From Aeromonas rivuli (GTDB lineage: Bacteria; Pseudomonadota; Gammaproteobacteria; Enterobacterales; Aeromonadaceae), in NCBI RefSeq assembly GCF_000820045.1, contig NZ_CDBJ01000023.1, positions 1-37,228 on the forward strand: 37,228 nucleotides of DNA, read 5' to 3'. A program made the position numbers and the translations under genes. The notes under the pieces are model-generated. The model was not told where the DNA came from, ran no database searches, and saw nothing but the letters and a program-made list of their open reading frames with translations. Of the stretch, positions 2,347 to 31,974 are shown one piece after another. Position 1 is the stretch's first letter; each line of letters begins with the position of its first letter.

Positions 2347-2378
2347 TTATTTCGTTATTTCGTTAAAGCGTTAATCGT
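2347..2378. repeat. 8-bp-period array, locus a (between T and U)
   Basis: Four consecutive 8-bp units on the plus strand: TTATTTCG, TTATTTCG, TTAAAGCG and TTAATCGT. They match the reverse complement of the CGAATTAA units around parA. The array starts in the last codons of the tape measure gene. See the arrays at 31171 and 31934 for the likely binding protein. Confidence 0.7.
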
Positions 2379-5070
2379 AAAGGCGGCCGCGGCTACGCTG
2401 GGCAGCGGCACGATCACGGGCGTCCATCTGTCGCCGCACCTCTTTGGCGATCTCTTCCGACGACTGCCCTGGGGCCGCGTGGATAATGATGTCGCCGTGC
2501 TCGTTGTGGATGCTAGGAGCCGCGGCGATCGACGCAGCAGCAGGCACACCTGCCGCAGCCACAACCGGATAAGCCGGGGTCGCTGTCATCACCGCATCAG
2601 CACCGCGCACCGTGGGCGTCTTCACCTGCTCCGGTAGTTGCTCGGACACCTGCTTGACCCGCTGGGTCACTTCAACGCCCTTATCTCCGCTGCCGAACAT
2701 GGAGTCCCACCATCCGCCCATCGTCTCCTTGATCGACATCAAGGGCTTTAGGACCGAATTGGTGAGGGTGTCCATCGCAGAGGAAACCCCCTGCTTAATG
2801 CCCTCCCAGAGTGAACCGAAGAACTCAGACAAGGGGGCCCATAACGGCCCGATGATGATCATCGGGTCAAAGCCAAGCAACCCCTTGATAAAGTCCCAGC
2901 TAGCCGAGGCGGCCACTTTGACCCAGTCCCACAGCGTGCTGAAAAACGCCTTCAGCGGCTCCCAGTGCGTGATAATTAAGCCGAGAGGGGTCCACGCAAA
3001 CAGACCCTTGATAAACTCCCAGGTGCTGGCAAATACGCTTTTGATGCCCTCCCATAGCCGCCCAAAGAACGCGCCGAGCGGTTCCCAGTATCGGATCACC
3101 AGTGCCACCACAGCGATCAGGGCAATGATGCCCGCAATCACCAAGCCGATGGGGTTCGCCATCATGGCCGTATTCAGCGCCCACTGTGCCCCAGTCATCA
3201 CGGCGGAACTCGCCGCCAGTGCTTTCTGGGTCCCCGCCATAAACAACATGGCTCCGGCCGTTGCTATCGTCCTCACTCTGGCCAACGCCATCACGATGTT
3301 GTTTCTCACCGTGGACGCCGCAAAGAAGTCCATCACCTTCCGCCCAACCACCAGGGCGTCAGAGAAGTACGAGAACGCGAACCGGCCAGCAATAGACGCC
3401 GCCTTGAAGGCGATCAACGCCACAATGGTCCCTGCAACCACTTGCGAGAGGATTGGAAAGCGTTCGATGAAGCCGTCCAACGTAATGGCCACACCGCCAA
3501 TCAAGTCCGCCACGAAGATCATGGACGGGGCAAACAGCTTGCCGACCGTGGCCGTCAAGTTCTGGATCCGCTGGGTGAGTCGATTCATCCCCTCCGCGGG
3601 GCCCTGCATCTTCTTGGCCATGTCCTCGGTGGTCTTCATCCCACCGCCCAAGGTCTTGTCCATCCCTGAAATGGATTGCTTGAGGGTGTCCACTTCTGGA
3701 TACAACAGCTTGATCATGTCGATGGCTTCATCGGTGCCGAACGCCTTCTTCAGCTCCTGCTCCTCCAGGGCGTCTATGGTGTCGCCGTACTTGCCGCGCA
3801 ACTCCTCCAGGATCTCCGGCATGGACAACAGTTGATTCTCGGCATCCAGGAACGACAGCTTCAGCTCCTTACCCGCCCCCGCAGCAGCACCAAGGAAGGC
3901 GCTGTATTTAGTGGCCGCCTCACTGCCTGACATGGTCGCCTGTAGTTGCCCGAGGATGGACAACTGTTCGGCAAAGGGTACGTTTGCCGACGTGGCCGCA
4001 GCCCCCAGACTCGAGATCGCCGCGGCCATATTCGGGCCGTCAGTTTTGAACGCCTTCACCGACGCCGAAATCCCCGCCGAGAAGTATTCCCCGAACTTCA
4101 TGTCCCGTTCGGCAGCCGACATGGTCGCCCACCCCTCGATCACCTTCGGGGCGAACTGGTCAAACTGCTTACGGTAGATCCCGTAACCCGATGCAAACAG
4201 CGAGGTCATTTCCGCGGTGGACGACTTGGTCGCGGCCGCCGTTAACGCCGCGATCTTGGTGAACTCGCCCACAGCAGCATCTGACAGCGACGCAATACCC
4301 GACTTGATGTCATAGGACGCCTTGATGAAATCAGCCTGTGTCGTGCCGGACCATTGGTTCGAAAACTCTTTGGCCTTCGCAGTGATGGCCGCAATACCAT
4401 CCGCCTCGATGCCGAGCGACCCGATCTGACCTTGCGCGGTGGCCACTTCCCCATAAACATCGACCAACTGTTTGATGCCAAAGACGGCCGCACCAACGCC
4501 CACAGCGTCCACCGTCGCGGATACACGCATCCCCTTGTTGCGCTCGGTGATCTCTGCCAGGGCTTTCTGGCGTTCTGCCACACCATCCAGGGCTTTCTGT
4601 TGCTCTGCCAACTGGGTGTTGTATTGGCTGGTTTGATCCCGGATCCGCTTGGTGGCCTCGTTCAACTGCTTGGTGGACACTCCAGCAGCATTTAGCTTGC
4701 CGCGAAGTTGCTCCAGCTCGGTCTGTTCGCTGGCTTGCTGGGCCTGCAAGCGGCGCACCTCCCCGGTGGCTTTTTCAAACTCCCGGGTCATCTTGCGCGT
4801 TGGCTCGGCGGTCCCGGCCATTTCCTTCGCCAAGGCGTTAACCCTGTCTTGGGCTTGCTGCAAGGCGGTTTCCGTCTGACCGGCTCCGCGCTTCAGCTCC
4901 CTGAAGTGCTCGATGTCCTTACTCATCGCGCCAAGTTGCGATAGCTTCTGTTCCGTCTCCTTGATGCTCTCACCCATGCGGGTGGTGGTATCCGTGACCT
5001 GCTGCACTGGGCCGGTGATCTTGTCCACCAAACCCATGATCAGGTTTAACCGCATACTGTTATCAGCCAC
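2371..5070 (-). CDS. T: Tail tape measure protein (P2 gpT-like)
   Basis: An 899-aa protein. Residues about 20-190 are a long helical, coiled-coil-rich segment (many Q, E, A, L heptads). A conserved phage tape-measure core follows, with the SIGALGAAA-type motif (AISSLGAAATSANVPFAEQL). Hydrophobic segments lie near residues 510-550 and 610-690, then Trp-rich repeats (three FFG/FFST-LW-G/D-W-I/V-K units at about 690-790), and a charged C-terminus. Tape measure proteins set tail length and are ejected into the envelope. The start is GTG at 5070 with AAGGGGG just upstream. It lies directly after E/E', as in P2. The Trp-rich repeats near the C-terminus are internally homologous. Confidence 0.93.
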   Translation of the reverse strand: MADNSMRLNLIMGLVDKITGPVQQVTDTTTRMGESIKETEQKLSQLGAMSKDIEHFRELKRGAGQTETALQQAQDRVNALAKEMAGTAEPTRKMTREFEKATGEVRRLQAQQASEQTELEQLRGKLNAAGVSTKQLNEATKRIRDQTSQYNTQLAEQQKALDGVAERQKALAEITERNKGMRVSATVDAVGVGAAVFGIKQLVDVYGEVATAQGQIGSLGIEADGIAAITAKAKEFSNQWSGTTQADFIKASYDIKSGIASLSDAAVGEFTKIAALTAAATKSSTAEMTSLFASGYGIYRKQFDQFAPKVIEGWATMSAAERDMKFGEYFSAGISASVKAFKTDGPNMAAAISSLGAAATSANVPFAEQLSILGQLQATMSGSEAATKYSAFLGAAAGAGKELKLSFLDAENQLLSMPEILEELRGKYGDTIDALEEQELKKAFGTDEAIDMIKLLYPEVDTLKQSISGMDKTLGGGMKTTEDMAKKMQGPAEGMNRLTQRIQNLTATVGKLFAPSMIFVADLIGGVAITLDGFIERFPILSQVVAGTIVALIAFKAASIAGRFAFSYFSDALVVGRKVMDFFAASTVRNNIVMALARVRTIATAGAMLFMAGTQKALAASSAVMTGAQWALNTAMMANPIGLVIAGIIALIAVVALVIRYWEPLGAFFGRLWEGIKSVFASTWEFIKGLFAWTPLGLIITHWEPLKAFFSTLWDWVKVAASASWDFIKGLLGFDPMIIIGPLWAPLSEFFGSLWEGIKQGVSSAMDTLTNSVLKPLMSIKETMGGWWDSMFGSGDKGVEVTQRVKQVSEQLPEQVKTPTVRGADAVMTATPAYPVVAAAGVPAAASIAAAPSIHNEHGDIIIHAAPGQSSEEIAKEVRRQMDARDRAAAQRSRGRLYD

Positions 5071-5086
5071 GCGACCCCCTTAAACG

Positions 5087-5121
5087 AAAAAAGGCCGGGC
5101 GACCCATCAGGATCGCCCGGC
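5087..5121 (-). terminator. Intrinsic terminator between E' and T
   Basis: Minus-strand stem GCCGGGCGA / TCGCCCGGC (9 perfect pairs) with a 10-base loop, followed by CTTTTTT. It lies between the E' stop (5107, inside the stem) and the tape measure start (5070). Confidence 0.75.
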
Positions 5122-5290
5122 GTTTGCTTGCTCTTTTGCCCGTTCGTGACGGTCCAGAGCGATGGAGTGCCAGCGCATCAGCTCGGGCAGGCTCATCGAC
5201 TCGGTTGTCTTCGCATCCCAGCCGGTGAAAATCAGATACAGATCGGCCTCGAACTCCATCACATCCCGGGGAAGGGTCGTCACTCCATGA
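5107..5290 (-). CDS. E': Tail assembly protein E' (made as E+E' by -1 frameshift)
   Basis: The reading frame -1 to gene E continues from the six-T run at 5290-5295 to a stop at 5107. It encodes a segment with ADLYLIFTGWDAKTTESMSL and LMRWHSIALDRHERA, which matches the P2 GpE family. An independent start would be ATG at 5259 (50 aa). The fusion E+E' would be about 141 aa, close to the length known for P2 gpE+E'. In P2-like phages both products chaperone the tape measure protein during tail assembly. Confidence 0.8.
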
Positions 5291-5528
5291 AAAAAGCGAC
5301 AACCTCTTGCTGCACCGCGATCAGGTCCTTGGGACAGAGCATGTCGTACTCGTTGGCGGTGATGTTGGAGATCCGGGGGATCAGGGTGCGGTGGGCACCA
5401 ACGTTCATCCGCAGCACGTCGAAGTTGTCCAGACCACGCAGCTCACCCGCGGACGGCTCACGCAATTCAACAGTGGAGATCTCGGCTTCGCCGCGCTTAA
5501 CCGGACGAGAGAGGGTTACTTTCTTCAT
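5280..5528 (-). CDS. E: Tail assembly protein E
   Basis: An 82-aa protein of the tail assembly chaperone (P2 gpE / Mu gp41-like) group, MKKVTLSRPVKRGEAEISTV at its start. It is encoded between the tube gene and the tape measure, the invariant place for the frameshifting chaperone pair of long-tailed phages. The start ATG at 5528 is preceded by AAGGA embedded in an 8-bp-period array (5525-5548). It ends at 5280 soon after the slippery T run. Confidence 0.85.
   Translation of the reverse strand: MKKVTLSRPVKRGEAEISTVELREPSAGELRGLDNFDVLRMNVGAHRTLIPRISNITANEYDMLCPKDLIAVQQEVVAFFME
5290..5295 (-). other. Programmed -1 frameshift site (T6 run)
   Basis: On the minus strand gene E reads GTC GCT TTT TTC ATG GAG TGA. 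Slipping back one base on T-TTT-TTC enters the E' frame and skips the stop. Its position near the end of E, followed by an open E' frame with family similarity, matches the P2 T-run frameshift. I have not modelled a downstream stimulatory structure. Confidence 0.8.
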
Positions 5529-5548
5529 TTCGTTAATTCCTTAAATAA
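5525..5548. repeat. 8-bp-period array, locus b (leader of gene E)
   Basis: Three 8-bp units on the plus strand: TCATTTCG, TTAATTCC and TTAAATAA. The array overlaps the ribosome site and start codon of gene E on the minus strand, so a protein bound here, or a structure formed here, could affect E/E' expression. Confidence 0.6.
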
Positions 5549-5560
5549 AACAGAAGGCGG

Positions 5561-5584
5561 AAAAACTGGCCCTTATTGGGCCAG
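5561..5584 (-). terminator. Intrinsic terminator after tail tube gene
   Basis: Minus-strand stem CTGGCCC, loop AATAA, GGGCCAG, then TTTTT. The stop codon of the tube gene lies in the loop. Confidence 0.75.
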
Positions 5585-6082
5585 TGCTTCGCGGATTTCT
5601 TTGTTGCGGTCTTTGCCGTTGACGCGGAACCGGTTGTTCATCTTGTCGATATGGATCAGCTCGCGGCCATCCACTTCCATTTCGAACATCTCCACCGCAA
5701 TCGAAAACTTCGAGGTGGCTTCCGATTCGGGCTTAAACTCGTTGAACTCGACCCCCTTCCAGAAACCTTGCTGACGCACCACCACGGTTTTGATCTGGCC
5801 ATTCACATCCAGGGCACCGCGTACCGTGAAGACCTCGTCACGGCTTTCACGACTGCCGATCAGGTCCAAGACCTTGTCGGAGTAGTCGGAGATCGTGACC
5901 TCCGATTCCAGCTTCTCCAGCTTGCCCACATCGCGCTCGATGTCGCCCGCCACACCTGACAAGGTCTGATCGATGGTCTTGGTCAAGATCTTGGGAATAC
6001 TCATCGTGTTGCACAGCCCGGCGAACGACTCGTCCTTGAAGAAGGCGTTCACGTCTACCAGGATGCTCGGTAATTTCGCCAT
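5573..6082 (-). CDS. FII: Major tail tube protein (P2 gpFII-like)
   Basis: A 169-aa protein of the P2 FII tail tube family. These proteins stack as hexameric rings around the tape measure inside the contractile sheath. Supporting features are the N-terminus MAKLPSILVDVNAFFKDESF, the length (P2 FII is about 172 residues), and the position immediately after the sheath gene. ATG at 6082, nine bases after the sheath stop. Confidence 0.92.
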   Translation of the reverse strand: MAKLPSILVDVNAFFKDESFAGLCNTMSIPKILTKTIDQTLSGVAGDIERDVGKLEKLESEVTISDYSDKVLDLIGSRESRDEVFTVRGALDVNGQIKTVVVRQQGFWKGVEFNEFKPESEATSKFSIAVEMFEMEVDGRELIHIDKMNNRFRVNGKDRNKEIREALAQ

Positions 6083-6091
6083 GTTTCCCCC

Positions 6092-7234
6092 TTATTCGAA
6101 AATGGCTTCGTTGTAACGGTCGGTGACGTGCTGACGGAAGGTCAGGCGCTCGGCGATGTCGTAGAAGCCCAGGTCGTAATCCCAGAACACTTGCGACGTG
6201 CCAATGGCGGCGACGTTCAGTTCCTTGTCCACCCAGCACTCACCACCGGAAATCACTTCACGGGAGATCAGGCGGCGCAGCAGCTTGTTAACCCGGTTTT
6301 TCACGCCATCCACGTAAGACTTGGTGACGTTGCGGTCTACCATTTCTTGGTGGGCGTACAGGATGGAGTCGCCGACGATGTAGCGGATCCGCTGGTGCGG
6401 AAGCATGGTCCCATTGGCCAGGCGGTTCCCGTACAGATACCAGCCACCTTGCTGGTTCACGATGCAAGCCACGTTCTTGGAGTTGTAGAGGTTCGCTTTG
6501 CTGGTCGTGCTGCCGATGGCGTGATCGATGGTCTCAGACGTCCCCACGATGCCGTAAATCTTGCGGCTCGACGGCGAATGCCAATAGCCCTCTTCGTTGT
6601 CCACGCGGACGATATGCCCGGCGATGGTGGCCGAGGCTTTGCGGCTGACGATGGCGTCCGCTCGGGTGTCGTGGATCTTCACCCCGCAGTTAACGAAGAA
6701 GACCTCGTCGAAGTTCTTCACCTCGTTGATCACGGCCGAGTAGCCGCCCTCACCCCCATCAATGATCGGGATGGCGTTCAGCTTTTTGCTGACCTCTTCC
6801 ATCGCCGCACCGACGCCAACCAGATGGCTGAACTCGGGCGCGATGATCAGGCGCGGACGGACCCCCAACAGCGACTCAGTAGACAGCAGCGCCTTGAGAC
6901 CGGTATAAGAGCCGGTTTCGTTGTCGATGGTGCCCACCACATTGGACACCTGATCGCCCTGCTCTTGAGACTCAGCCACGCGCACCACGGCCACCACTGC
7001 ACCGCCTTGGCGATAGATGTCTTCCAAAGCATTGCGCAGAGTCCCCTTGCTGCCCGCCTTGGCGATCAGCTTGTCGCTATTGCACAGCACCGGCGTATTG
7101 AGCGGGAAGGTGGTCGCGTCGGCATCGTCCGCAGTGGCCACCAGACCGATGGTCGAAGCCGCCAGGACTTCGATGGGGCGTTCGGTATTTTCGAGGAAAT
7201 ACTGTTCCACGCCGTGCAGGTAATCGGCTGCCAT
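6092..7234 (-). CDS. FI: Contractile tail sheath protein (P2 gpFI-like)
   Basis: A 380-aa protein of the P2 FI sheath family. The N-terminus (DYLHGVEQYFLENTERPIEV) and the central segment with NSKNVACIVNQQGGWYLYGNR are characteristic. The C-terminal part (SGGECWVDKELN and the FYDIAERLTF segment) forms the handshake domain in this family. It proves the virion is a myovirus. Two terminator-like hairpins lie just upstream (7252-7305), so FI may head its own transcription unit, as FI does in P2. Confidence 0.95.
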   Translation of the reverse strand: MAADYLHGVEQYFLENTERPIEVLAASTIGLVATADDADATTFPLNTPVLCNSDKLIAKAGSKGTLRNALEDIYRQGGAVVAVVRVAESQEQGDQVSNVVGTIDNETGSYTGLKALLSTESLLGVRPRLIIAPEFSHLVGVGAAMEEVSKKLNAIPIIDGGEGGYSAVINEVKNFDEVFFVNCGVKIHDTRADAIVSRKASATIAGHIVRVDNEEGYWHSPSSRKIYGIVGTSETIDHAIGSTTSKANLYNSKNVACIVNQQGGWYLYGNRLANGTMLPHQRIRYIVGDSILYAHQEMVDRNVTKSYVDGVKNRVNKLLRRLISREVISGGECWVDKELNVAAIGTSQVFWDYDLGFYDIAERLTFRQHVTDRYNEAIFE

Positions 7235-7251
7235 AAGGCACGTTCTCCTAT

Positions 7252-7273: not shown

Positions 7274-7314
7274 AGAATTTGGGCACAAAAAAACCGCTTT
7301 CGCGGCGGGTCTGG

Positions 7315-7650: not shown

Positions 7651-7659
7651 TTGAACTCC

Positions 7660-12424: not shown

Positions 12425-12444
12425 AAAACCGCCCGGATGGGCGG
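12425..12444 (-). terminator. Hairpin terminator after baseplate gene V
   Basis: Minus-strand stem CCGCCC, loop ATCC, GGGCGG, then TTTTGTTTTT. It follows an 8-bp-period array and precedes the small V-W intergenic gene. Confidence 0.65.
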
Positions 12445-12468
12445 CTTGCGTTAATTCGTTAAATCTTT
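12443..12468. repeat. 8-bp-period array, locus c (after V)
   Basis: Units on the plus strand: GGCTTGCG (degenerate), TTAATTCG and TTAAATCT. Same orientation relative to the surrounding transcript as loci a, b and d. Confidence 0.6.
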
Positions 12469-12469
12469 A

Positions 12470-13042
12470 CTACTGACCCGCGCAAACCGTGGACGAGCAA
12501 TCGGCGTGGGGGACCCCCAGCACCAGACACTTATGGGCACCGGTAACAACCCCCTTTCCCCCGTTGAGGCGGATATTCGCCGCGTCAACGGTCGCATCAC
12601 CCTCCGCGGTCACGGCCGCATTACCGGACACGCTCACGGCCGCATCACCAACCACAGCGAGGCGCAACTTCTCATCCGTGCGCTGGTACTCGATCACCGT
12701 CCCGTTACCGAAATTGATATGGAACAGATCCGGGTCAGTGGATGGCGGCGGAAACCCGTCGTGATAACTACCGGGCAACACCTCGCCCTGGCTCAGGTCG
12801 CCATCACTGATCACAGTGGCACCCTCGCCAATCTCCGGCACCCACCACACAACCGCTTTCCCGGTGCGCGGCGGCTTCCAGGTCAGCCAGCCCGTCAGGA
12901 GGCCATCACCGTACTTAACCCGCACCAATGCCTTGTCAGGGTCCACGGCCGCGATAACCCCACGGACCACCATTTGGGACAAGCGCCGCTCCAGCTCTTC
13001 AACGCGCTGGAGTAAATCAGAAGACCGATCACCCATCACCAC
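12470..13042 (-). CDS. V: Baseplate spike protein gpV
   Basis: A 190-aa protein of the P2 gpV family: the membrane-piercing spike at the end of the tail. An N-terminal OB-fold region is expected (RGVIAAVDPDKALVRVKYGD ... LTGWLTWKPPRTGKAVVWWV ... PEIGEGATVIS), followed by a beta-helical stretch with repeated short AVSVSGNAAVTAEGDATVDA units. The Cys/His-rich C-terminus (VPHADCSSTVCAGQ) could bind a metal at the tip, as in P2 and phi92 spikes. It overlaps the upstream gene by about 14 bases. Confidence 0.9.
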   Translation of the reverse strand: MVMGDRSSDLLQRVEELERRLSQMVVRGVIAAVDPDKALVRVKYGDGLLTGWLTWKPPRTGKAVVWWVPEIGEGATVISDGDLSQGEVLPGSYHDGFPPPSTDPDLFHINFGNGTVIEYQRTDEKLRLAVVGDAAVSVSGNAAVTAEGDATVDAANIRLNGGKGVVTGAHKCLVLGVPHADCSSTVCAGQ

Positions 13043-21682: not shown

Positions 21683-21898
21683 TTAGCGGGGTGCAGTTGC
21701 ACACTCGCGCAGGTCGTGGATGTAGTTCACCAGCTCGCCCAGCGCCTCACCGGACAAGCAAGCCCCGCCGTCACTGCTTTGGCTCCACTGGAGCCTTGGC
21801 GGTGTCGGATCGCACAACGGGCGAGGCGTCGGCAGCGGGGCGCTCTGACATGCCGTCAGGCTGACCGAACAGATCAGCAAAAGCGCGGGCCGGGTCAT
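21683..21898 (-). CDS. Rz1-like outer-membrane spanin lipoprotein
   Basis: A 71-aa protein: an N-terminal signal peptide ending in the lipobox (MTRPALLLICSVSLTACQSA) followed by a Pro-rich stretch (PLPTPRPLCDPTPPR). This combination, and overlap out of frame with the preceding small gene, is the signature of Rz1. Spanins disrupt the outer membrane at the final step of lysis. An earlier in-frame ATG at 21952 would place the signal peptide internally, so 21898 is preferred. Confidence 0.75.
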   Translation of the reverse strand: MTRPALLLICSVSLTACQSAPLPTPRPLCDPTPPRLQWSQSSDGGACLSGEALGELVNYIHDLRECATAPR

Positions 21899-22022
21899 CT
21901 GCCACCGCGGCCCGGCGCTCTTCACGCCGCAATTGCTTGCGCTCTTGGTCATATCGATCCCACCGCGCCAACAGGCGCTTAAAGAGTTCGGCGAAGCTGC
22001 TCAGGGTCGTTAGCCATCCCAT
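21771..22022 (-). CDS. Rz-like partner of the spanin (putative)
   Basis: An 83-aa charged, helical protein (RWDRYDQERKQLRREERRAA) overlapping the Rz1-like gene in another frame, as Rz does. The N-terminus (MGWLTTLSSFAELFKRLLAR) is amphipathic and only weakly hydrophobic, so the expected membrane anchor is not clear. It may be a divergent inner-membrane spanin or an unrelated small lysis-region protein. Confidence 0.5.
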   Translation of the reverse strand: MGWLTTLSSFAELFKRLLARWDRYDQERKQLRREERRAAVADDPARAFADLFGQPDGMSERPAADASPVVRSDTAKAPVEPKQ

Positions 22023-24876: not shown

Positions 24877-25242
24877 TCAAAAGATCACCGGATCGGCAGC
24901 CTGCACCCCGCACCGGAAGCGGGATTCGTCAGCTACCTGCCTAGACCGCTGACGACGCATAGGGATCCCGAAAAACTGCCGAACCCCGCGAGCCTGCCGC
25001 CCGTGGAGTGCGTTTCGGGCCCCAGGGTCCCCCGGCTTTCCGCGCCGCCGCGTCTCGGCCGCCGCTCCACCGACACACATAATCCCTTTATTATCAGCCA
25101 CTTGCCACACACGCAGCGACACACAACCGCCGCCGCGCTGTGCGCCACACCGACCGAAACAGCCGCCGACGGCGACCGGCTCAAATACGCTTTTCACTTG
25201 CTTGATTCCTCCTTTAGCGTGGGTCCTGTAATTTGCCCTCAT
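24877..25242 (-). CDS. Hypothetical Gly/Arg/Cys-rich protein coupled to integrase
   Basis: A 121-aa reading frame whose ATG at 25242 overlaps the integrase stop (ATGA), with GAGG upstream. It starts MRANYRTHAKGGIKQVKSVF and is rich in Gly, Arg and Cys, with scattered Cys pairs and no clear fold. The coupling argues for a gene; the composition is unusual and argues for caution. No function is proposed. It is the only candidate for this 320-base interval. Confidence 0.4.
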   Translation of the reverse strand: MRANYRTHAKGGIKQVKSVFEPVAVGGCFGRCGAQRGGGCVSLRVWQVADNKGIMCVGGAAAETRRRGKPGDPGARNALHGRQARGVRQFFGIPMRRQRSRQVADESRFRCGVQAADPVIF

Positions 25243-26522
25243 GCCGCGGCCTCGCTGGTCTGGTCTGCTGGCGTGTTTTTTCTCGATCTCGCTTCTGTCT
25301 CGGTCTCGATGGTGAGCCCCTGAAGGATCAGCCAGTCGTGATAACGGGCCAACGCCTCCCGCTTCTGAACAGCCATCGCCGTGTGGATGTATGTGGCGTC
25401 CAAGTCCTTGAGCGTGTGATTCAGCAACAGCTCCCCGACGATGTAATCCACGCCGAGATCTGCCCACACAGTCCGCGCCAATTTCCGCAAATCGTGAGAG
25501 GTCCACGCCTTTTCACTGATCACCTGAAACAGCTCATTGGCTTTCGTTTTACCGATTGGCCTTCCGGGCTTTGCTCCAGGGAACAGCCAGACACTAGAGA
25601 CCCCGCGGCGGGATTGACTGGCTTGGTATGCCTTCAACGCCTGCACCGCGGCCGACGACAGCGGGATCTGGTGCTCTCGCTTGTTCTTGGTGAACCGGCC
25701 CGGGATCGTTAACGTGCTGCCGCGCCAATCAATCCAGTCCCATCGGTGATGCCGTGTTTCGCCGACCCGCGTCCCGTGCAACAACATCAAGAGCGGGATC
25801 AACCGCTCAGGACCTTGGCAAGCAGGCAAGCGCCCCATGAAGTCCGTCAGGCGCTCGACACGCAACGACGGGTCCTTGGGCTTGATGCGGGCCTGAATGA
25901 AGTCGCTGAACACCCAGGGGGCCAACGGGTTCGACTCGATACGCTTTAGCCGATACGCCTGCTTGAATGCCGCCTTCAGCACTCCGAACACGGACTTCAC
26001 GAACGACAGGGAATAGGTCGATTGCATGGGCCAAATCAGCTTTTCATCAAGCAGGGTTCGGCCTTCTTTCTCACTGCTAAACGCCCCCAGGGGAACATCA
26101 GACAGCACCGGCAAAAGCTGCCGATTTATGGCGCTCTTGACCGAACTCCGCCGACTGGATGACACGTTGGCGTTATCGCCGGACCGGTCCCGATACCAAC
26201 ACAGCAAATCGCCCACTGTTGCCCAGGTGGACACCGCCAGATTATCCGACGCGGGATCAACAGCCAGTTGCCCCTTGATTTCCGGCAGCCGTGCAAACAG
26301 GACCTTGGTGGTCATGTCTGGAAATGCCCCGACCTTTTTCCAGCGTTCCCGGCCGCCTTGATAGTGCCGCAGGTGAAAAGAGCCCCGATCCCGGTCCTTG
26401 TGGAACCGGAACAACAACGAGAAACGAGGGTCTTTGATCTGCCTGACGCTGGGGTCTTGGCTATGCCGCCGAATGACGGCATCTGACAAGGCGGTGATGA
26501 TTGTGGCGGTCATGGCCTCCAC
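25239..26522 (-). CDS. int: Tyrosine recombinase / integrase (P4-type)
   Basis: A 427-aa integrase. The N-terminal segment (about 30-95, including FHLRHYQGGRERWKKVGAFP) resembles the arm-type DNA-binding domain of P4-like integrases. Catalytic residues fit: Arg252 in HGTRVGE, His343 and Arg346 in SHDLRK, His369 in LLNHTL, Tyr378 in DATYIHT. It could integrate the genome into a host site, or resolve dimers of the plasmid form. I could not identify attP. It is not a protelomerase, which would be longer and of different layout. Confidence 0.92.
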   Translation of the reverse strand: MEAMTATIITALSDAVIRRHSQDPSVRQIKDPRFSLLFRFHKDRDRGSFHLRHYQGGRERWKKVGAFPDMTTKVLFARLPEIKGQLAVDPASDNLAVSTWATVGDLLCWYRDRSGDNANVSSSRRSSVKSAINRQLLPVLSDVPLGAFSSEKEGRTLLDEKLIWPMQSTYSLSFVKSVFGVLKAAFKQAYRLKRIESNPLAPWVFSDFIQARIKPKDPSLRVERLTDFMGRLPACQGPERLIPLLMLLHGTRVGETRHHRWDWIDWRGSTLTIPGRFTKNKREHQIPLSSAAVQALKAYQASQSRRGVSSVWLFPGAKPGRPIGKTKANELFQVISEKAWTSHDLRKLARTVWADLGVDYIVGELLLNHTLKDLDATYIHTAMAVQKREALARYHDWLILQGLTIETETEARSRKNTPADQTSEAAA

Positions 26523-26543
26523 TCCTGTGATAGCCCGCCTCGG

Positions 26544-26575
26544 GCTTTGCGTTAAATCGTTATTTCGTTAAGTCG
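26544..26575. repeat. 8-bp-period array, locus d (upstream of integrase)
   Basis: Units on the plus strand: GCTTTGCG (degenerate), TTAAATCG, TTATTTCG and TTAAGTCG. The array overlaps the 3' end of the upstream gene and lies before a GCCCG/CGGGC hairpin in the integrase leader. Confidence 0.65.
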
Positions 26576-26976
26576 TCCAGCTTGATACGGTCGCCGGGGA
26601 TCAGGCTTTCACGCTCGCGGGTTCTGTCCTTCAGGGCCTCGATAGCGCGTTCCAGGTGCATGATGGCCGTTTCGTTATAGGCGCTTTCATAGGGCCCAGA
26701 TTGAAACATCTTCAGCCGGTCATGGCAGATGGCGATCAGCGCCTCGATGGTTACGCCGTTTCGCCCAACGCTGGCCGGGTGGCCATGCTGGAACCGAATC
26801 ACCCCAAGCGCCTGATCAACCTCCAGCACATCAGACCCCGGCTTGGCAGTCACAACGGAATAGTGATGCGGACCACCGAACCCGAAGGCAGTGGCCGCAC
26901 TGGCGGAGGATTGGAAAATCCGAACGCCGGCTTCATCACCGACGTGGTGGGTTGTCACTTCCCGAACTCTCAACAT
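26560..26976 (-). CDS. Tad1/Acb2-like anti-defence protein (cyclic nucleotide sponge candidate)
   Basis: A 138-aa protein. The C-terminal part has NGVTIEALIAICHDRLKMFQ, SGPYESAYNETAIMHLE, RAIEALKDRTRERE, which I recognise as the conserved helical pattern of the Acb2/Tad1 group. Those phage proteins bind and sequester cyclic signalling nucleotides of CBASS or Thoeris immunity. The N-terminal 75 residues add a beta-rich segment, as in the longer Tad1 form. ATG at 26976 with AAGGGG before it. Which nucleotide it binds cannot be told from sequence. Confidence 0.7.
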   Translation of the reverse strand: MLRVREVTTHHVGDEAGVRIFQSSASAATAFGFGGPHHYSVVTAKPGSDVLEVDQALGVIRFQHGHPASVGRNGVTIEALIAICHDRLKMFQSGPYESAYNETAIMHLERAIEALKDRTRERESLIPGDRIKLDDLTK

Positions 26977-26985
26977 GATCACCCC

Positions 26986-27168: not shown

Positions 27169-27171
27169 CTG

Positions 27172-27372
27172 CTACTCCTTACCAATCAAATTCATGGCTT
27201 GAGCCCACCCGCCAGCGATACCGTTCTCAGATGCCAACTGATCAAGAGCGGCGGCCAATTTAAGTTCACGCCCCTCCAATTTCGCCGCCTTAACCAACTT
27301 CTTGGCTTTTTTGCGCAAAAACTCCACAGTGTTCCCAGATGGGAACTTGATATGATCGTTAATATGTTTCAT
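27172..27372 (-). CDS. Small basic early protein of unknown function
   Basis: A 66-aa basic protein (FLRKKAKKLVKAAKLEGREL) with an AGGA site before ATG 27372; the upstream gene overlaps by 14 bases. The Lys/Arg-rich helix could bind nucleic acid, but no family is recognised. Confidence 0.6.
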   Translation of the reverse strand: MKHINDHIKFPSGNTVEFLRKKAKKLVKAAKLEGRELKLAAALDQLASENGIAGGWAQAMNLIGKE

Positions 27373-27877
27373 GACGCTTCCTAACCGGCTTACCAACAAC
27401 CACACACGAACAACGGCCGCCAGCATGACCGCTCACACTGACATATCCTGTCCCGTCGCACTGGTCACAATCAGGATGCGGAGATTCAACGTTCTCCAGC
27501 CCGGCAACCACTATCGAAACAGCATTGCCATGAGCAAGACGGGACCGAGAAATGACCTCAACAACCTCCAGCCCACCAGGGTGACGTGATACATCGTCAA
27601 CCAAGATCACATCCGCGGGATATGACCCGACCCATTCAGGAAACTTAGGACGGGATGACCACCCCACAGCGACATCACTCAAATCCGGGGAGATGCGGTA
27701 ACGATGCAGCCAGCGGGCCGCGTCTTGTGACGGGCAAAGGAAAAGAACAGACTTCCCGTCCGCAATAACCCCCTTGGCAATAGTCAGTAAGAGAGTTGTT
27801 TTCCCTGACTGGGGCTCGGGGGAACGAATGAAATTAACGTGCAGACTAGGCACAGAAGAAGATGAAATATCACTCAT
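27359..27877 (-). CDS. P-loop ATPase with C-terminal zinc-binding segment
   Basis: A 172-aa protein from ATG at 27877 (ATGA overlap with the upstream stop). Walker A is PEPQSGKTT near residue 20, and Walker B is DVILVDDV near 88. The C-terminal segment CDQCDGTGYVSVSGHAGGRC resembles a DnaJ-type zinc finger half. It is shorter than RecA or DnaC. It may be a helicase-loader-like or RecA-like accessory factor, perhaps for phage replication. Confidence 0.65.
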   Translation of the reverse strand: MSDISSSSVPSLHVNFIRSPEPQSGKTTLLLTIAKGVIADGKSVLFLCPSQDAARWLHRYRISPDLSDVAVGWSSRPKFPEWVGSYPADVILVDDVSRHPGGLEVVEVISRSRLAHGNAVSIVVAGLENVESPHPDCDQCDGTGYVSVSGHAGGRCSCVVVGKPVRKRHETY

Positions 27878-28212
27878 AACACTTCCCCCCCAACGGCCAG
27901 CAACGACCGCCCCCACAGACATCCGGGGCCATCTTCAGTGTCAAAAATCCCGAGAATGAACCACATATCACCGGGCGGTGGTGATGGCTCCCACTCGCTC
28001 ACATCAGGATCACCCAATTCGAAATATCGTTCGACCAGCTCTTCGGGGGCATCTGACTCCATAGAAACCCACTCGCACCGAATCCCTTTACAGGCCATCA
28101 GCGCGGTGAAGTCTTGCCATGTCATTTCATCCATACCGATCAAGGCAGGATGAAGCCACATTCCATATTCATCACGGTCAACGTGGACCGGCACCAGTTC
28201 AACGACCATCAC
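27874..28212 (-). CDS. Conserved-type phage early protein
   Basis: A 112-aa acidic protein, ending with the segment PPPGDMWFILGIFDTEDGPG, CLWGRSLL. This ending is of a type common in small phage early proteins of unknown function. It overlaps the Q-like gene upstream (ATGA) and the ATPase downstream, so it belongs to the same operon. Confidence 0.6.
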   Translation of the reverse strand: MMVVELVPVHVDRDEYGMWLHPALIGMDEMTWQDFTALMACKGIRCEWVSMESDAPEELVERYFELGDPDVSEWEPSPPPGDMWFILGIFDTEDGPGCLWGRSLLAVGGEVL

Positions 28213-28631
28213 CCCATCCCCTCCAGTTCTTGAATGATCACTTCCCGCGCCTCAGCAAGGCGGCGCTTGTATGTCCGCAGGCTCATACCAAGGGCGTGAG
28301 CCATGTCGATCTGTAGCAGGCCGGACGGGTCGAAATTCACCAACCCGCGGCGCTGTGAAACCCGAAACCAACCGGCGCGGCATTCCAGCCGCAACACGTC
28401 AGCCCGGTCCTGATTCTCGGCGGCCATTTTCATCACAGCCGCCTCGATACGGGCTTCTATGGTGTCCATAGGCGCAGAGCCCCCACCACTGCCGAACGTG
28501 ATCAACCCTTTTCCGTCGATCATCCTGGCCAGCATTGAGGCCCCCGAGCCAGGAACAACGCCCCCGGAATGACACCAACGCGCCCAGGCTTCCAACAGGT
28601 CGTCGAGGTCATTTCGGCGGCGGCGTCCCAT
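28209..28631 (-). CDS. Q-like late antiterminator
   Basis: A 140-aa protein from ATG 28631 with AAGGAAG upstream. The N-terminal DLDDLLEAWARWCHSGGVVP and the following SMLARMIDGKG segment, followed by DTIEARIEAAVMKMA, resemble the phage 82/21 Q group. A C-terminal HTH-like IDMAHALGMSLRTYKRRLAE follows. Q proteins load on polymerase at the late promoter and let it pass a terminator; here 23863-23887 would be the target. Confidence 0.65.
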   Translation of the reverse strand: MGRRRRNDLDDLLEAWARWCHSGGVVPGSGASMLARMIDGKGLITFGSGGGSAPMDTIEARIEAAVMKMAAENQDRADVLRLECRAGWFRVSQRRGLVNFDPSGLLQIDMAHALGMSLRTYKRRLAEAREVIIQELEGMG

Positions 28632-28651
28632 ACACTTCCTTTCTGAAACCA

Positions 28652-28876
28652 TCACGCTCCGGCCGCCCATTGGTTAAACTCATGCACCAAACCGGCCCAC
28701 TTCCTCGCGGCCTCTTTGTTCGTGTTCAGCTCCCGGCGGCTTTGCACACCACACAACCGGCGAACAACCTCAGCAGCCGCGGCAGCGTCTGGCACCTCTC
28801 TCCCGCACTTACCAGCCAGAAAGCGCAGGAAGCGGGCTTTCTGACAGAAAATCGCAGCACCCCTTGTGAAATCCAT
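28652..28876 (-). CDS. Hypothetical early protein
   Basis: A 74-aa protein (MDFTRGAAIFCQKARFLRFL) from ATG 28876 preceded by AAAGGGGG. Helical, with basic residues in the N-terminal part. Unknown family. It is in the early operon between the Q-like and the nucleotide-kinase-like genes. Confidence 0.6.
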   Translation of the reverse strand: MDFTRGAAIFCQKARFLRFLAGKCGREVPDAAAAAEVVRRLCGVQSRRELNTNKEAARKWAGLVHEFNQWAAGA

Positions 28877-28887
28877 GCACACCCCCT

Positions 28888-29292
28888 TTACGCCGCCTTG
28901 GGGTTATAACGGATCATCGTTTCGGATAGCGCCTCCACCGGGTCCAGATAGTGGCGGACCCCGCCAGCGCGGGGCGTCACCATCAGATCATCGCGCTGAA
29001 TAGCAATCTCACTGGATGGAACCCCCTCAACGTGCCAAAGCTGACCACCAAGAGCGCGGATATATTCCACCTCTTCCCATGTCTTGACGTGAGTCAGCAC
29101 AAGACCGCGATCCCGCTCCTTGCCGTGGTCAAACTTCAAGACCACATCACGCAGCAAATCCGCCCGCAGACGTCCACTTCTTGGGACCCGCATGGCATAC
29201 GCCACAAGCCGAGCCCGACCAACCCCGACAACCGCTTGCGCCACCTCTTCACGACGGCGCTCACAACCGCCGACCAGCCCGATAATCAACAT
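28888..29292 (-). CDS. Degenerate deoxynucleotide-kinase-like P-loop protein
   Basis: A 134-aa protein. The opening MLIIGLVGGCERRREEVAQA aligns with the start of phage dNMP kinases, but the Lys and Ser/Thr of the P-loop are replaced (GGCERRREE). A later segment, LVLTHVKTWEEVEYIRALGG, QLWHVEG, matches the corresponding part of that family. It probably lost catalysis and may bind nucleotides or act as a regulatory protein. Confidence 0.6.
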   Translation of the reverse strand: MLIIGLVGGCERRREEVAQAVVGVGRARLVAYAMRVPRSGRLRADLLRDVVLKFDHGKERDRGLVLTHVKTWEEVEYIRALGGQLWHVEGVPSSEIAIQRDDLMVTPRAGGVRHYLDPVEALSETMIRYNPKAA

Positions 29293-29300
29293 CTTTCCCC

Positions 29301-29516
29301 CTACACCTCACCCGCCACCCGGGCAGATGCCAGGGGGCCATAAATGCCGTTGTAATCGACCTCGCCGCGGGACTTTGACACGATATTCAGCGACGACGAA
29401 AGCCGAGGGGCCTTCTCCTTCCGATACCAGGAATAAACCGTTCTCGGCTTTTCCTTCAGAAGCTCGGCCGCCTTCTCGATCCCGCCCACACTGTCAATCC
29501 AGGTGTTCAAATCCAC
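29301..29516 (-). CDS. cro-like: Cro-like helix-turn-helix protein
   Basis: A 71-aa protein from GTG 29516. The segment GGIEKAAELLKEKPRTVYSW is a HTH of the Cro/YdaS kind. It is the first gene of the leftward early operon and diverges from the repressor gene, the classic immunity arrangement. Its leader carries operators at 29550 and 29616. Confidence 0.75.
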   Translation of the reverse strand: MDLNTWIDSVGGIEKAAELLKEKPRTVYSWYRKEKAPRLSSSLNIVSKSRGEVDYNGIYGPLASARVAGEV

Positions 29517-29703
29517 GTATTGAAGCCCTTGTTAACACACTAATAAAAGAATTACACGTTATGTGTAATTCTAGGCGACAAAACAGGTGTTTTACAAGGC
29601 TTTGTTTTGCTGATTTAACACGCTAAGTGTATAGTTGATCAGAATAACAAACGGATGCAGCTAACAGCCTCCTACGAGGCCGCCGCTAACCCGCCTCGTT
29701 AAC
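29517..29703. promoter_or_regulatory. Immunity region with two operators and divergent promoters
   Basis: Operators: AATTACAC-N5-GTGTAATT at 29550-29570 and TTAACAC-N5-GTGTATA at 29616-29634. Plus-strand promoter for the repressor: TTGCTG (29608-29613) with TATAGT (29630-29635), overlapping the second operator. Minus-strand early promoter: TAGAAT (29568-29573) with a poor -35, TTGTAA (29593-29598), start near the first operator. The geometry suggests the repressor blocks early transcription and controls its own promoter. Confidence 0.75.
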
Positions 29704-30363
29704 ATGGGAAACATGATGTCGGACATTAAAAATGTGCAAGCGAACCGGCTAAGACACTGCCGCGGCGTCAAAGGCTGGACTCTCGAAGAAACAGGAAAGC
29801 GCCTCGGCGTTACTGGCTCCCGCTATTCCAATTGGGAGCAAGCCTTACGCTCGCCGAAATATGAGCAGATGATAGCCCTCGCCGAACTATTCGGGACCAC
29901 CCCCGCATGGCTGGCCGGGTTCACAGACCACGAAGGCCACAACGCCAGCCCAATGGATTACGTGACCCTAGACCAGAGCCCCATTTCAGTGGGCGGGGAA
30001 ACATTGAACATCGACAATGTGGCCAATCGGTCAGCCCTCCATATTGATCACGCCAAGGCAAGGGGCCTGAATGAAAACAAGCTGACAGCCATCATCGCCC
30101 AGGGCGATAGCATGGACCCCCTTATCCAGGACGGCGCGGAAGTGCTGATCGACCGCAGCCGGACAACCGTCAGCACTGCCGATCTTTTCGCCATTTTGGT
30201 GAACGGTCAGATTTGGATCAGGTGGATAAGGCCAGAACTGGACGGCTCGTTTACCGTTGCCGCCGAAGACTCGGCGCACTACCCAGACCAGAAGCTGAAC
30301 GCCGAGCAACTGGCGAGCCTGAAGATAGTCGGGCGAATAGCCAGAATCACCCACGACAGATAA
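29704..30363 (+). CDS. cI-like: CI-type repressor, S24 fold, catalytic Lys replaced
   Basis: A 219-aa protein (start 29704, or ATG 29713/29716). HTH at about 26-48 (LEETGKRLGVTGSRYSNWEQ). The C-terminal S24 domain has Ser136 in AQGDSMDPLIQDG. The usual catalytic Lys (VK in the consensus) is Arg173 in GQIWIRWIRP, and no clear Ala-Gly cleavage site lies in the linker (about 75-100). The dimerisation fold is kept, but RecA-stimulated self-cleavage is doubtful. This is the likely master repressor of the operators described here. Confidence 0.9.
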   Translation: MGNMMSDIKNVQANRLRHCRGVKGWTLEETGKRLGVTGSRYSNWEQALRSPKYEQMIALAELFGTTPAWLAGFTDHEGHNASPMDYVTLDQSPISVGGETLNIDNVANRSALHIDHAKARGLNENKLTAIIAQGDSMDPLIQDGAEVLIDRSRTTVSTADLFAILVNGQIWIRWIRPELDGSFTVAAEDSAHYPDQKLNAEQLASLKIVGRIARITHDR

Positions 30364-30394
30364 GACAAGCGCGGCCAATGCCGTGTTTTTCCAT

Positions 30395-30423
30395 TTGTTG
30401 GTTTTACACTAAAAGTGTAAGAT
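30395..30423 (+). promoter_or_regulatory. Promoter of the maintenance operon with CI-type operator
   Basis: TTGTTG (30395-30400), 17 bases, TAAGAT (30418-30423). The spacer holds TTACAC-N5-GTGTAA (30404-30420), a perfect inverted repeat identical in arms to the immunity operators. Repressor bound here would block the genes at 30464-31136. Confidence 0.7.
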
Positions 30424-30463
30424 TCCACGAATAAGCACACCACCAACACGAAAAGGGTTAATC

Positions 30464-30724
30464 ATGCGGGATCTAGCAGTATTGGGCGGAGCACCTGAAG
30501 GGGAGGTCATCCCACTACCCACCACCAAGAAGGTGGCCATTTATACCAATTTGCGGCAATCGGCGGCGATGGCCTCCGGTCTGGAGGCGCTGGCCGTTCG
30601 CGCCCTCGAATGCGGCGAAGCAACCGACAAAGACCTAGAGGACATCGCCGACCTTTCCGCACGACTCAAAGATGATTTGAACCGCGCCGCCCTCGTTATC
30701 TCTCAACTTGCCGACAACAACTAA
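30464..30724 (+). CDS. Hypothetical protein of the maintenance operon
   Basis: An 86-aa mostly helical protein (MRDLAVLGGAPEGEVIPLPT) with an AAAGGG ribosome site. The C-terminal half (KDLEDIADLSARLKDDLNRA) is acidic and amphipathic. It is the first gene after the operator-controlled promoter. No family is recognised. Confidence 0.6.
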   Translation: MRDLAVLGGAPEGEVIPLPTTKKVAIYTNLRQSAAMASGLEALAVRALECGEATDKDLEDIADLSARLKDDLNRAALVISQLADNN

Positions 30725-30746
30725 CGCTCTATCAAGGACGGATAGA

Positions 30747-31136
30747 ATGACAATGGAAATCACAGGCGAAGACGTCATCGGGCTATCAGGCCAGCAACTC
30801 ACCACCCCCGAATTGCGCGTCCTTGTCGGTTTGGCTGACGGCGAAACCCCCTCCCAAATCTCACTGGCCGTACAGGTCCCCGCCTCATCGCTTCGACATA
30901 TCGAAGCATCCATCCAGGCAAAGCTGGGAGCAAAGACAAAGCCCCATATGATAGCCAGGGGGTTTACGCTCGGCGTTCTCATTCCTCGCGCTCTCTGCCT
31001 CATGCTGGCCATTCTGGCCACTTTCGAGGTTGACGACGACGCCCTTCGTCTTCGCCGCCCCTACCGCACCAAGACCGGCACAAGTTACGTTCGCGTCATT
31101 CGCCCATCCAGCGCAGGCGGAAAGGACTTCGCCTAA
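30747..31136 (+). CDS. LuxR-type helix-turn-helix regulator
   Basis: A 129-aa protein; ATG at 30747 with AAGGACGG upstream. Residues about 22-75 fit the GerE/LuxR DNA-binding domain: LTTPELRVLVGLADGETPSQ, ISLAVQVPASSLRHIEASIQ, AKLGAKTKPHMIARG. There is no receiver domain before it. It lies between the first maintenance gene and parA and may regulate either phage or host promoters. Confidence 0.75.
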   Translation: MTMEITGEDVIGLSGQQLTTPELRVLVGLADGETPSQISLAVQVPASSLRHIEASIQAKLGAKTKPHMIARGFTLGVLIPRALCLMLAILATFEVDDDALRLRRPYRTKTGTSYVRVIRPSSAGGKDFA

Positions 31137-31170
31137 CCTCTCCCCGGGCGGCCGCGCCGCCCCACCCTGC

Positions 31171-31292
31171 CAAATTCGTTAATTCGTCATTTCTTTATTT
31201 CGTTTTTTCTTGCCATCATCCCGCCCTGTCATTATCCTTATTCATGCGTTAACGAATTAACGATTTGACTATTTAACGAAGGGGATACACCA
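31171..31292 (+). promoter_or_regulatory. par promoter flanked by inverted 8-bp-period arrays (parH/parS candidate)
   Basis: Array e: five 8-bp units 31171-31210 (CAAATTCG, TTAATTCG, TCATTTCT, TTATTTCG, TTTTTTCT). Promoter candidate: TTGCCA (31210-31215), 17 bases, TATCCT (31233-31238). Array f: CGAATTAA, CGATTTGA, CTATTTAA, CGAAGGGG (31253-31284), in the opposite orientation, overlapping the parA ribosome site. ParG-like RHH proteins bind arrays of short boxes with an 8-bp period, so this is the probable centromere and autoregulatory operator. Confidence 0.75.
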
Positions 31293-31934
31293 ATGGGATA
31301 CAAGATCGGCGTGGTCTCACAAAAGGGCGGCGTAGGGAAAAGCACCCTTGCCCGTTCGACAGCCTCAACCTATGCGGCCGCAGGCTGGAACGTGAAGATT
31401 GCAGACCTAGACATCAATCAGAGCACCAGCTTTTCATGGCTGCAACGTCGCCTCAAATCGGGCATTACCCCCGTGGTTAACGTCGAATGCTTCGGCACTC
31501 TCTCTCAGGCGCTCCGCGTGGCAGATGCTTACGACCTTATGATTTTCGATGGCGCTCCACACGCAACAAAGGCCACTGTCGAGATCGCCAAGGTTTCCGA
31601 CTTGTTGGTCCTCCCCACGGGCCTATCACTGGACGATATGGAACCGACAGTCATCCTTGCCAACGCCCTGGCCGACAAGCACGGGATAGAGTCCGGCAAG
31701 ATCTGCTTTGCCTTGTGTCGAGCGGGGAACAGCGAGAAGGAGTTAGAAGAAGCCCGGGAATACTTATCCGAAACCCCCTTCCACTTACTTGATGGCGTCA
31801 TGTTCGAAAAGACCGCATTCCGCCGGGCTCACGACTCAGGATTGGCCGCCATCGAGACACCATACAAAGGCCCGCGGGAGCAAGCCGACCAGTTGATCCA
31901 GTCGATTATCAACCGGCTCCAGTCCGAACAATAA
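31293..31934 (+). CDS. parA: ParA partition ATPase (type Ib, ParF-like)
   Basis: A 213-aa deviant Walker ATPase: SQKGGVGKST (residues 9-18) with both the signature Lys11 and Lys16, DLDINQS (about 40), and FDGAPHATKA (about 87). The length equals type Ib ParA (ParF is 206), with no N-terminal HTH, so autoregulation must come from the partner. It drives segregation of the plasmid form. GAAGGGG upstream is the ribosome site. The next gene encodes the partner. Confidence 0.93.
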   Translation: MGYKIGVVSQKGGVGKSTLARSTASTYAAAGWNVKIADLDINQSTSFSWLQRRLKSGITPVVNVECFGTLSQALRVADAYDLMIFDGAPHATKATVEIAKVSDLLVLPTGLSLDDMEPTVILANALADKHGIESGKICFALCRAGNSEKELEEAREYLSETPFHLLDGVMFEKTAFRRAHDSGLAAIETPYKGPREQADQLIQSIINRLQSEQ

Positions 31935-31974
31935 CGAATTAACTAAATAACGAATTAACGAGGTAACGAAGATA
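31935..31974. repeat. 8-bp-period array, locus g (between parA and the RHH gene)
   Basis: Five 8-bp units on the plus strand: CGAATTAA, CTAAATAA, CGAATTAA, CGAGGTAA and CGAAGATA. The array covers the whole gap, including the ribosome site (GAGG) of the RHH gene. Confidence 0.75.

Follow-up and report, generated by a model that had tools for sequence, protein, structure and literature searches.

Seven arrays of 8-bp boxes in a phage-plasmid of Aeromonas rivuli probably form one set of binding sites for a single protein, the 82-aa predicted ribbon-helix-helix (RHH) partner of ParA, that is, a scattered type Ib centromere and operator. All of the arrays are likely to be bound by one small protein of predicted DNA-binding function because, in related phages, the letters of the scattered repeats follow the segregation locus. 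The scattered arrays would serve plasmid inheritance and perhaps also the restraint of phage genes. The DNA analyzed (the window, positions 1 to 37,228 of contig NZ_CDBJ01000023.1) is a circular phage-plasmid with a near-identical Aeromonas counterpart, the circular AP022265.1, and because its first 396 bases recur at its end with 98.99% identity, it looks like a circle read slightly past its own start. No description of such arrays in these phages was found in the titles and abstract openings of open-licence papers.

Results

All seven arrays claimed in the first-pass annotation are present at the coordinates given there, three around parA and rhh and four where genes meet in the late and integrase regions (Table 1). 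Their exact 8-bp period was borne out, but the common unit also claimed is degenerate rather than one fixed sequence: in a useful register, the box of the seven arrays is TTAACGAA plus tolerated variants. The window contains 14 three-unit matches to CGAATTAA with at least 18 of 24 letters, where 100 first-order Markov shuffles gave 0.01 on average and 1 at most. With up to three mismatches, TWACGAWWTWACGAWWTWACGA matches 13 times in the window and never in 100 shuffles, and 16 times in the whole 4.53-Mb assembly, the three matches outside the window each having three mismatches; the same pattern backwards, as a control, matches once in the assembly. All 10 assembly matches with no more than two mismatches fall in six of the seven arrays, and the phage contig is the sole site of arrays of that quality. 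The weakest array (5525-5548; three mismatches) is kept in the close relatives Edwardsiella ictaluri pEI-2083-2 and G149. When self-similarity was scored in 23 records (24 minus one near-copy), par arrays included, lag 8 gave 47 arrays and lag 16 gave 19, and every other lag from 4 to 20 gave 0-2. A chance origin was rejected on the shuffle and lag tests.

Table 1. Box arrays and par features of the window, with relatives that carry an array at the corresponding place
Feature	Position	Strand	Description	Array also in
Tape-measure/gpU array	2343..2374	-	four boxes; gap between tape-measure gene (2371-5070) and gpU-like tail gene (1877-2305); covers tape-measure stop	G149, E. ictaluri pEI-2083-2, VPHZ6, Vibrio phage PE002A, P. 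aeruginosa pPAC1.3b
Tail-assembly array	5521..5544	-	two to three boxes covering the start of the tail-assembly gene (5280-5528) and its presumed ribosome-binding site	E. ictaluri pEI-2083-2, PE002A; in reversed direction, H905 and HDW18
gpV array	12447..12470	-	three boxes after baseplate gpV gene (12470-13042), gpV-gp25 interval	E. ictaluri pEI-2083-2, VPHZ6, PE002A, H905, HDW18
Integrase array	26548..26579	-	four boxes between gene 26560-26982 and tyrosine recombinase gene (25239-26522)	upstream of integrase: E. ictaluri pEI-2083-2, H905, HDW18, pPAC1.3b, H. qaidamensis
par array 1	31175..31206	-	four boxes, upstream of predicted parA promoter	
Promoter-like site TTGCCA-17-TATCCT	31210..31238	+	between par arrays 1 and 2; consensus scan, prediction only	
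par array 2	31249..31280	+	four boxes, between promoter-like site and parA	
parA	31293..31934	+	213-aa ParA-type ATPase without N-terminal DNA-binding domain, type Ib size	
par array 3	31931..31970	+	five boxes, parA stop to rhh start	
rhh	31974..32222	+	82 aa, ribbon-helix-helix-like; predicted ParA partner that binds centromere and operator	

The parA product matches the ParA-like family phrog_164 (E 7e-33) as well as Pfam AAA_31 and CbiA, and scores 98.9 bits with NCBIfam ParA_partition, under the cut-off of 180. Its Walker motif starts at residue 10, its length lies within the ~200-220 aa of type Ib, and ParF comes first among its seven solved relatives (E 1.4e-5). Short repeats stand upstream of parA, as in type Ib systems, and the promoter there is a consensus match from a scan that found 8 sites in the region against 6.8 expected by chance. 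One related locus (L189) has no array upstream of parA. The 82-aa protein matches Pfam RHH_10 at E 3.7e-4, its Pfam scores lying below the cut-offs, and the profile of its family reaches 2kel at E 3e-5 and ParG (1p94) at E 0.12. Its structural model is of low confidence (pLDDT 66.5), with helices at 48-60 and 65-80 and no strand, and a Foldseek search with it gave no match at E 0.001 or better. The prediction is too weak to place the strand.

The scan of relatives that the first-pass annotation had called for gave a favorable answer: relatives that keep the par genes also keep arrays at corresponding places, as judged by eye against the annotation. The relatives are decisive through the lettering of their boxes. 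In phages whose par boxes are TTAAAGAA, ATAACGCT, AGCACGAA or TTAGCTAA, the scattered arrays are mostly of that box or a near neighbor. Away from par, 18 phage records of 36-46 kb hold 72 arrays of their own par class, two to six each, a count matched in 0 of 20,000 label shuffles, with class labels taken from the par regions, in part by eye; the count of 43 with 11 representatives was likewise never matched. The viral records with G handles carry no completeness estimate, and the bases covered were 39,800 of 40,225 in G154 and 20,000 of 20,470 in G158. In four classes, the par boxes and the dispersed boxes agree in letter frequency with correlations of 0.983-0.996, a figure raised by the use of one consensus to pick both sets. 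Blind inference of the box from the par regions of 132 loci worked for many, and returned low-complexity units such as TTAATTAA and CTTTCTTT for some class B and D loci, which were classed by eye. Scores under about 60 mean little in this inference because shuffled par regions score 20-54 and once 102.

A cross-table of 50 loci shows the same pattern. The six C-class phage loci hold 15 C arrays and lack all five other units, the 13 F-class phage loci hold no A, B, C or D arrays, and the A- and B-class phage loci hold no C or F arrays. Among the F-class loci, the one-letter neighbor E scores more arrays (25) than F itself (19). In the comparison of the 18 phage records, the 39 arrays of foreign units comprise 22 A-B cases, nine A or B units in the D-class VPHZ6 and pVPGX2, seven E units and one D unit. 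Unit A (four arrays) outnumbers the own unit D (three) in pVPGX2, and own and foreign arrays tie in VPHZ6 and G157; in all three, the par arrays themselves mix boxes. Near box classes overlap. Of three complete plasmids that are not phages and have this par type, two are without a dispersed array. Plasmid pZM3H1 has two dispersed arrays. Loci with a structural-gene match hold 68 arrays in 21 loci (19 of 21 with at least one), and those without such a match, many of which are parts of viral contigs, hold 35 in 29 (18 of 29). By structural-gene matches, the contrast between phage and non-phage loci is weak.

RHH residue 45 is predicted to read DNA and co-varies with one box letter. Of the scored loci, the 10 with C at box letter 7 have Arg at this residue, and the 42 others have Lys or, in one case, Gln (L172, with Gln45, counted as not Arg; L165, with a cut-off rhh gene, outside the count). 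On the ParA tree each trait changes twice. The independent pairs behind the co-variation number one or two (sign test p 1). The 53-row tree omits 20 of the 69 loci scoring at least 75 (near-copies, rhh not read, low-complexity or other units) and keeps four of lower score; Arg45 loci outside its count are L112, L176 and L178 (low score) and L092, L147, L150, L153 and L149 (other units). L096, with Lys45, has several boxes before rhh in which letter 7 is C. A link between Asp at residue 41 and G at box letter 4 is suggestive only, with two exceptions, L174 and L175.

Discussion

Why would the boxes of a segregation locus stand at the borders of tail and integrase genes? The RHH dimers would sit side by side, one per box and on either strand. 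At par they may repress the parA promoter enclosed by two arrays and, with ParA, form the segregation complex. At the dispersed arrays, which have 3-6 boxes, the same dimers could provide extra anchoring points by which the plasmid is moved and clustered, and probably a road-block or silencer on the late and integrase genes in the lysogen.

Chance, or drift of simple sequence within AT-rich gaps, is hardly tenable as the origin of the arrays. The units are AT-rich and of low complexity, those of class B most of all, but shuffles yield almost none, the enrichment is confined to lag 8 and its double, class C boxes contain three G or C letters, and par and dispersed arrays change class together. 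An element acting in the transcript, such as a terminator- or leader-associated motif, is also very improbable. The first-pass annotation had raised it as an alternative, having noted that the four phage arrays all run one way relative to the transcript and that three of them adjoin a hairpin. Both statements are true of the window, where all four follow the direction of transcription, three precede a hairpin and the fourth follows one, but neither is general. Between relatives, direction is reversed at one gene boundary, tube-gpE, as seen in HDW18 and in the phage-plasmid of the squid symbiont Aliivibrio fischeri H905. Boxes of mixed direction on one lattice are seen in 23 of 23 class C1 and 16 of 53 class B arrays; class A (2 of 33) and class D (0 of 28) are almost all one-directional. 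Mixed and reversed directions are as for a dimer on duplex DNA. In 15 records, hairpins lie near 24 of 59 array-bearing gene ends and near 270 of 869 array-free ones, and a terminator companion was rejected as a general rule on these counts. Rfam gave no match at its gathering scores. The RNA-level alternative was set aside because direction flips between relatives and the hairpins are irregular.

Two narrower readings keep the RHH protein on all of the arrays or the segregation role at all of the sites. If the dispersed arrays were operators only, their task in the lysogen would be to repress or block late and integrase genes, and segregation would proceed without them. The tape measure-gpU, tube-gpE, gpV-gp25 and upstream-of-int boundaries do recur across box classes, the arrays are short, and RHH partition proteins are described as repressors elsewhere (PMC9499535; PMC5016525). 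However, none of the four dispersed arrays of the window coincides with a promoter-like match in the consensus scan, array direction flips, some arrays are at unrelated places, and the four strong arrays of H. qaidamensis (class C1) lie outside the structural gene block. This reading is doubtful. A purely centromeric function, in which the dispersed arrays are extra segregation sites and the boundary places merely reflect exclusion of TAA-rich arrays from genes, seems equally unlikely. TAA at an 8-bp pitch hits all three frames, 11 of 69 arrays lie at least 90% inside ORFs by an automatic count, two class D arrays, whose box is without TAA, sit in annotated genes of VPHZ6, and scattered sites are described for RK2 and N15 (PMC5016525). 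Yet corresponding boundaries recur, in a comparison of the gaps that bear arrays, and a review reports a single site to be enough for segregation in nearly every type Ia case it covers (PMC5016525).

A combined centromere and operator is reminiscent of several known systems. The prophage plasmid N15 has partition sites IR1-4 (PMC7205306), called scattered across its genome in a review (PMC5016525), and the first-pass annotation had proposed a type Ib analogue of it, with a par centromere and dispersed copies. The proposal is favored by the arrays kept in relatives and by the agreement of dispersed arrays with the par box: at the level of sequence, this prophage plasmid does carry several partition-type sites at a distance from its par genes. 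Unlike N15, which is linear and has the type Ia SopA/SopB system, the Aeromonas element is circular, as seen in AP022265.1 and in the repeated window ends, with a ParA of type Ib size, a small RHH-like protein and 8-bp tandem boxes. SopB of N15 is not known to be an RHH protein. In the type Ib delta/omega system of pSM19035, RHH dimers are described on short repeats that adjoin one another, direct or inverted, in six arrays overlapping promoters of par and copy-control genes, and full activation of ParA by omega is said to require at least four contiguous repeats (PMC9499535), a requirement to be set against the 3-6 boxes of the dispersed arrays. Those repeats are given as 7-bp heptads, 7-10 per site, at the copS, delta and omega promoters, whereas here lags 8 and 16 are enriched and lag 7 gives none, the 8-bp boxes are mostly 3-5 per array, and arrays are also found inside the phage structural operon. 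TP228, with type Ib ParF/ParG/parH, has a small RHH partner with a flexible tail and repeats upstream of the operon (PMC5016525). Its likeness is in ParF as the first solved relative of the window ParA; it differs in a centromere described as continuous beside the genes and in that the RHH profile reaches ParG only weakly. In the type Ia system of RK2, KorB is a partition protein doubling as a regulator (PMC11790492), with OB sites scattered over the plasmid (PMC5016525). KorB, however, is a CTP-dependent sliding clamp, no small RHH protein is involved, and RK2 is not a phage.

In a wider and more tentative reading, which we hold to be possible, the segregation protein organizes the whole genome throughout this family of circular phage-plasmids: RHH filaments at fixed late-operon and integrase boundaries would spread the centromere and silence lytic genes, and the whole site set would be re-lettered together when the DNA-reading strand changes. 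The natural box classes with their matching proteins are a ready panel for the RHH recognition code. If the proposed role of the arrays is true, dispersed centromeres would extend from type Ia systems (N15, RK2) to small RHH systems of type Ib, and in phage-plasmids of Aeromonas, Vibrio, Aliivibrio, Halomonas and Pseudomonas plasmid inheritance would be tied to lytic control.

Results

The window, judged from its sequence, is a circular phage-plasmid carrying the genes of a contractile-tailed phage (terminase, portal, sheath, tape measure, integrase-type recombinase and repressor), together with parA and rhh, which encodes an 82-amino acid predicted ribbon-helix-helix (RHH) partner. The two ends carry the same sequence at 98.99% identity, which suggests a circular contig whose reading ran on beyond the starting point. 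The Aeromonas veronii plasmid pWP8-S18-ESBL-11_1 (circular, 37,223 bp) encodes an identical ParA (100%) and aligns to window positions 7-32375 at 97.2% and to the remainder at 90-97%. Close to the par locus lies a serine recombinase (DNA-invertase/resolvase type) that perhaps resolves multimers or inverts tail-fibre DNA, and a tyrosine recombinase, whose gene is kept in the family's circular phage-plasmid records, may have a role in resolution rather than integration. A 319-amino acid protein matching phrog_20951 (unknown function) is a possible replication initiator; in PQ189289.1, a relative, a gene located in a similar general region after the tail genes is annotated as RepA.

Coordinates of features in the window
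Feature	Position	Strand
End repeat	1-396 and 36833-37228	
Dispersed array	near 2347	
Dispersed array	5525-5548	
Dispersed array	near 12443	
Tyrosine recombinase	25239-26522	
Dispersed array	near 26544	
parA	31293-31934	+
rhh	31974-32222	+
Serine recombinase	32852-33418	
319-amino acid protein	35519-36478	

The seven arrays of 8-bp period described in the first-pass annotation were confirmed: the window holds 14 three-unit matches, compared with 0.01 on average after shuffling, and all 10 matches with at most two mismatches in the 4.53-Mb assembly lie inside six of the seven. The seventh (5525-5548) matches only at three mismatches, as do three assembly sites outside the contig (one for a backwards control pattern). 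In register TTAACGAA, the arrays around parA and rhh (par arrays) contain four, four and five 8-bp boxes and the dispersed arrays four, three, three and four, some end boxes fitting at just 5/8 letters.

The relatives compared were phage and plasmid records together with viral and genome contigs. Lags 8 and 16 yielded 47 and 19 arrays when self-similarity was computed in 23 of 24 records (near-copy plasmid excluded, par arrays included); all remaining lags between 4 and 20 yielded 0-2 each. Inspection of par regions by eye showed two blocks of boxes preceding parA and, in many of the records, another one ahead of rhh; one locus, L189, has no box array upstream of parA. At L156 and L158, loci of Photobacterium and Aliivibrio whose ParA is distant, 8-bp arrays of other units are inferred both upstream and downstream of parA, with very high scores (235 and 372).

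Box classes, read from the par region, some assigned by eye
Class	Box
A	TTAACGAA
B	TTAAAGAA
C	ATAACGCT or ATAACGCA or TTAACGCT
D	AGCACGAA
E	TTAGCGAA
F	TTAGCTAA

Phages bear arrays of their own par class away from par. In 18 records of 36-46 kb, own-class arrays number 72, a total attained by 0 of 20,000 label shuffles; arrays of foreign units, four such units being scored per record, add up to 39. The 39 comprise 22 A-B cases, nine A/B units in two D-class records, seven of unit E and one of unit D. The class D element pVPGX2 has more unit A arrays (four) than its own (three), own and foreign counts tie in VPHZ6 and the viral record G157, and both VPHZ6 and pVPGX2 have A and D boxes mixed in their par arrays. 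At F-class loci the neighbouring unit E gives 25 arrays and F 19; the clean contrasts are C versus all others and F versus A to D. The letters tolerated are the same in par and dispersed boxes, and this, with the own-class arrays, is the trace that would be expected of one shared protein. The main part of the earlier reading, a par centromere plus dispersed copies, is thus supported by arrays that follow their own par class.

When relatives were scanned for co-conservation of position, arrays recurred at tape measure-gpU, tube-gpE and gpV-gp25 (from annotation and by eye, in the records checked) and upstream of int. The third place lies one small gene earlier in Aeromonas elements than in Vibrio phages. 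Measured from parA, these three places correspond in turn to arrays at 7.9-9.4 kb (classes A and D), 11-14 kb and 17.5-20 kb (both in classes A, B and D). At 32-35 kb the array is directly upstream of int in classes A and B, as it also is in pPAC1.3b (class E) and H. qaidamensis (class C1), and is placed elsewhere in class D. The remaining arrays are lineage-specific. Placement at gene boundaries is partly forced, because TAA at 8-bp pitch closes all reading frames; VPHZ6, whose class D box lacks TAA, has two arrays within annotated genes.

Discussion

Do the arrays act as duplex DNA or, as the first-pass annotation alternatively proposed, as an RNA-level element? A hairpin comes after 24 of the 59 gene ends that carry an array and after 270 of the 869 that do not, and an Rfam search gave no match at gathering scores. 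Boxes of mixed direction share one lattice in all 23 class C1 arrays and 16 of 53 in class B (scarce in class A, 2/33, and class D, 0/28), and at the tube-gpE boundary the window's boxes point along the transcript, those of HDW18 and Aliivibrio fischeri H905 in the opposite direction. This evidence points to duplex DNA, and the RNA-level element was rejected. No match to the phage queries was found in three complete plasmids that carry this type of par locus; two lack a dispersed array and the third, pZM3H1, has two. Across the whole set of 50 loci, at least one dispersed array is present at 19 of 21 with phage-gene matches and at 18 of 29 without, a weaker split than among complete plasmids, many of the 29 being parts of viral contigs. 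In pZM3H1, a non-phage Halomonas plasmid, the two par-type arrays (21692-21990) occupy a region for which no genes are listed, perhaps close to an origin.

ParF ranks first among solved relatives of the window ParA, and its partner resembles RHH proteins, the low-confidence structure model giving just the two helices. By analogy to Arc, residues 41, 43 and 45 would presumably face DNA. Arg45 occurs in all 10 scored loci with C at box letter 7, the 42 others having Lys45 (Gln once); this pattern needs just two changes on the ParA tree, amounting to one or two independent pairs, and L096, a Lys45 locus, has some boxes with C at letter 7 before rhh. Asp41 accompanies G at letter 4, except at loci L174 and L175.

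Precedents include, by its title, a 2008 study by Ravin on late gene expression, which PMC11652158 lists among its references. Partition sites of N15 and RK2 are scattered, according to excerpts of one paper (PMC5016525), and N15 SopB silences a reporter near N15 sites, according to excerpts of another (PMC7205306). Omega arrays, in the excerpted text, are located at promoters and need four or more repeats (PMC9499535). A 2026 paper describes a circular phage-plasmid of Vibrio that carries a partition system; its excerpts say nothing of arrays like these (PMC13230959). The window's four dispersed arrays have no promoter-like match, so the data agree better with a road-block or silencing than with an operator of the classic kind. 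We propose that the RHH partner would bind all arrays as predicted sites: the par arrays would serve autoregulation and nucleate the segregation complex, and the dispersed arrays would provide extra anchoring points, where late and integrase transcription would probably be damped. The regulatory part of the earlier reading, control of lytic and integrase genes, would on this analysis be plausible.
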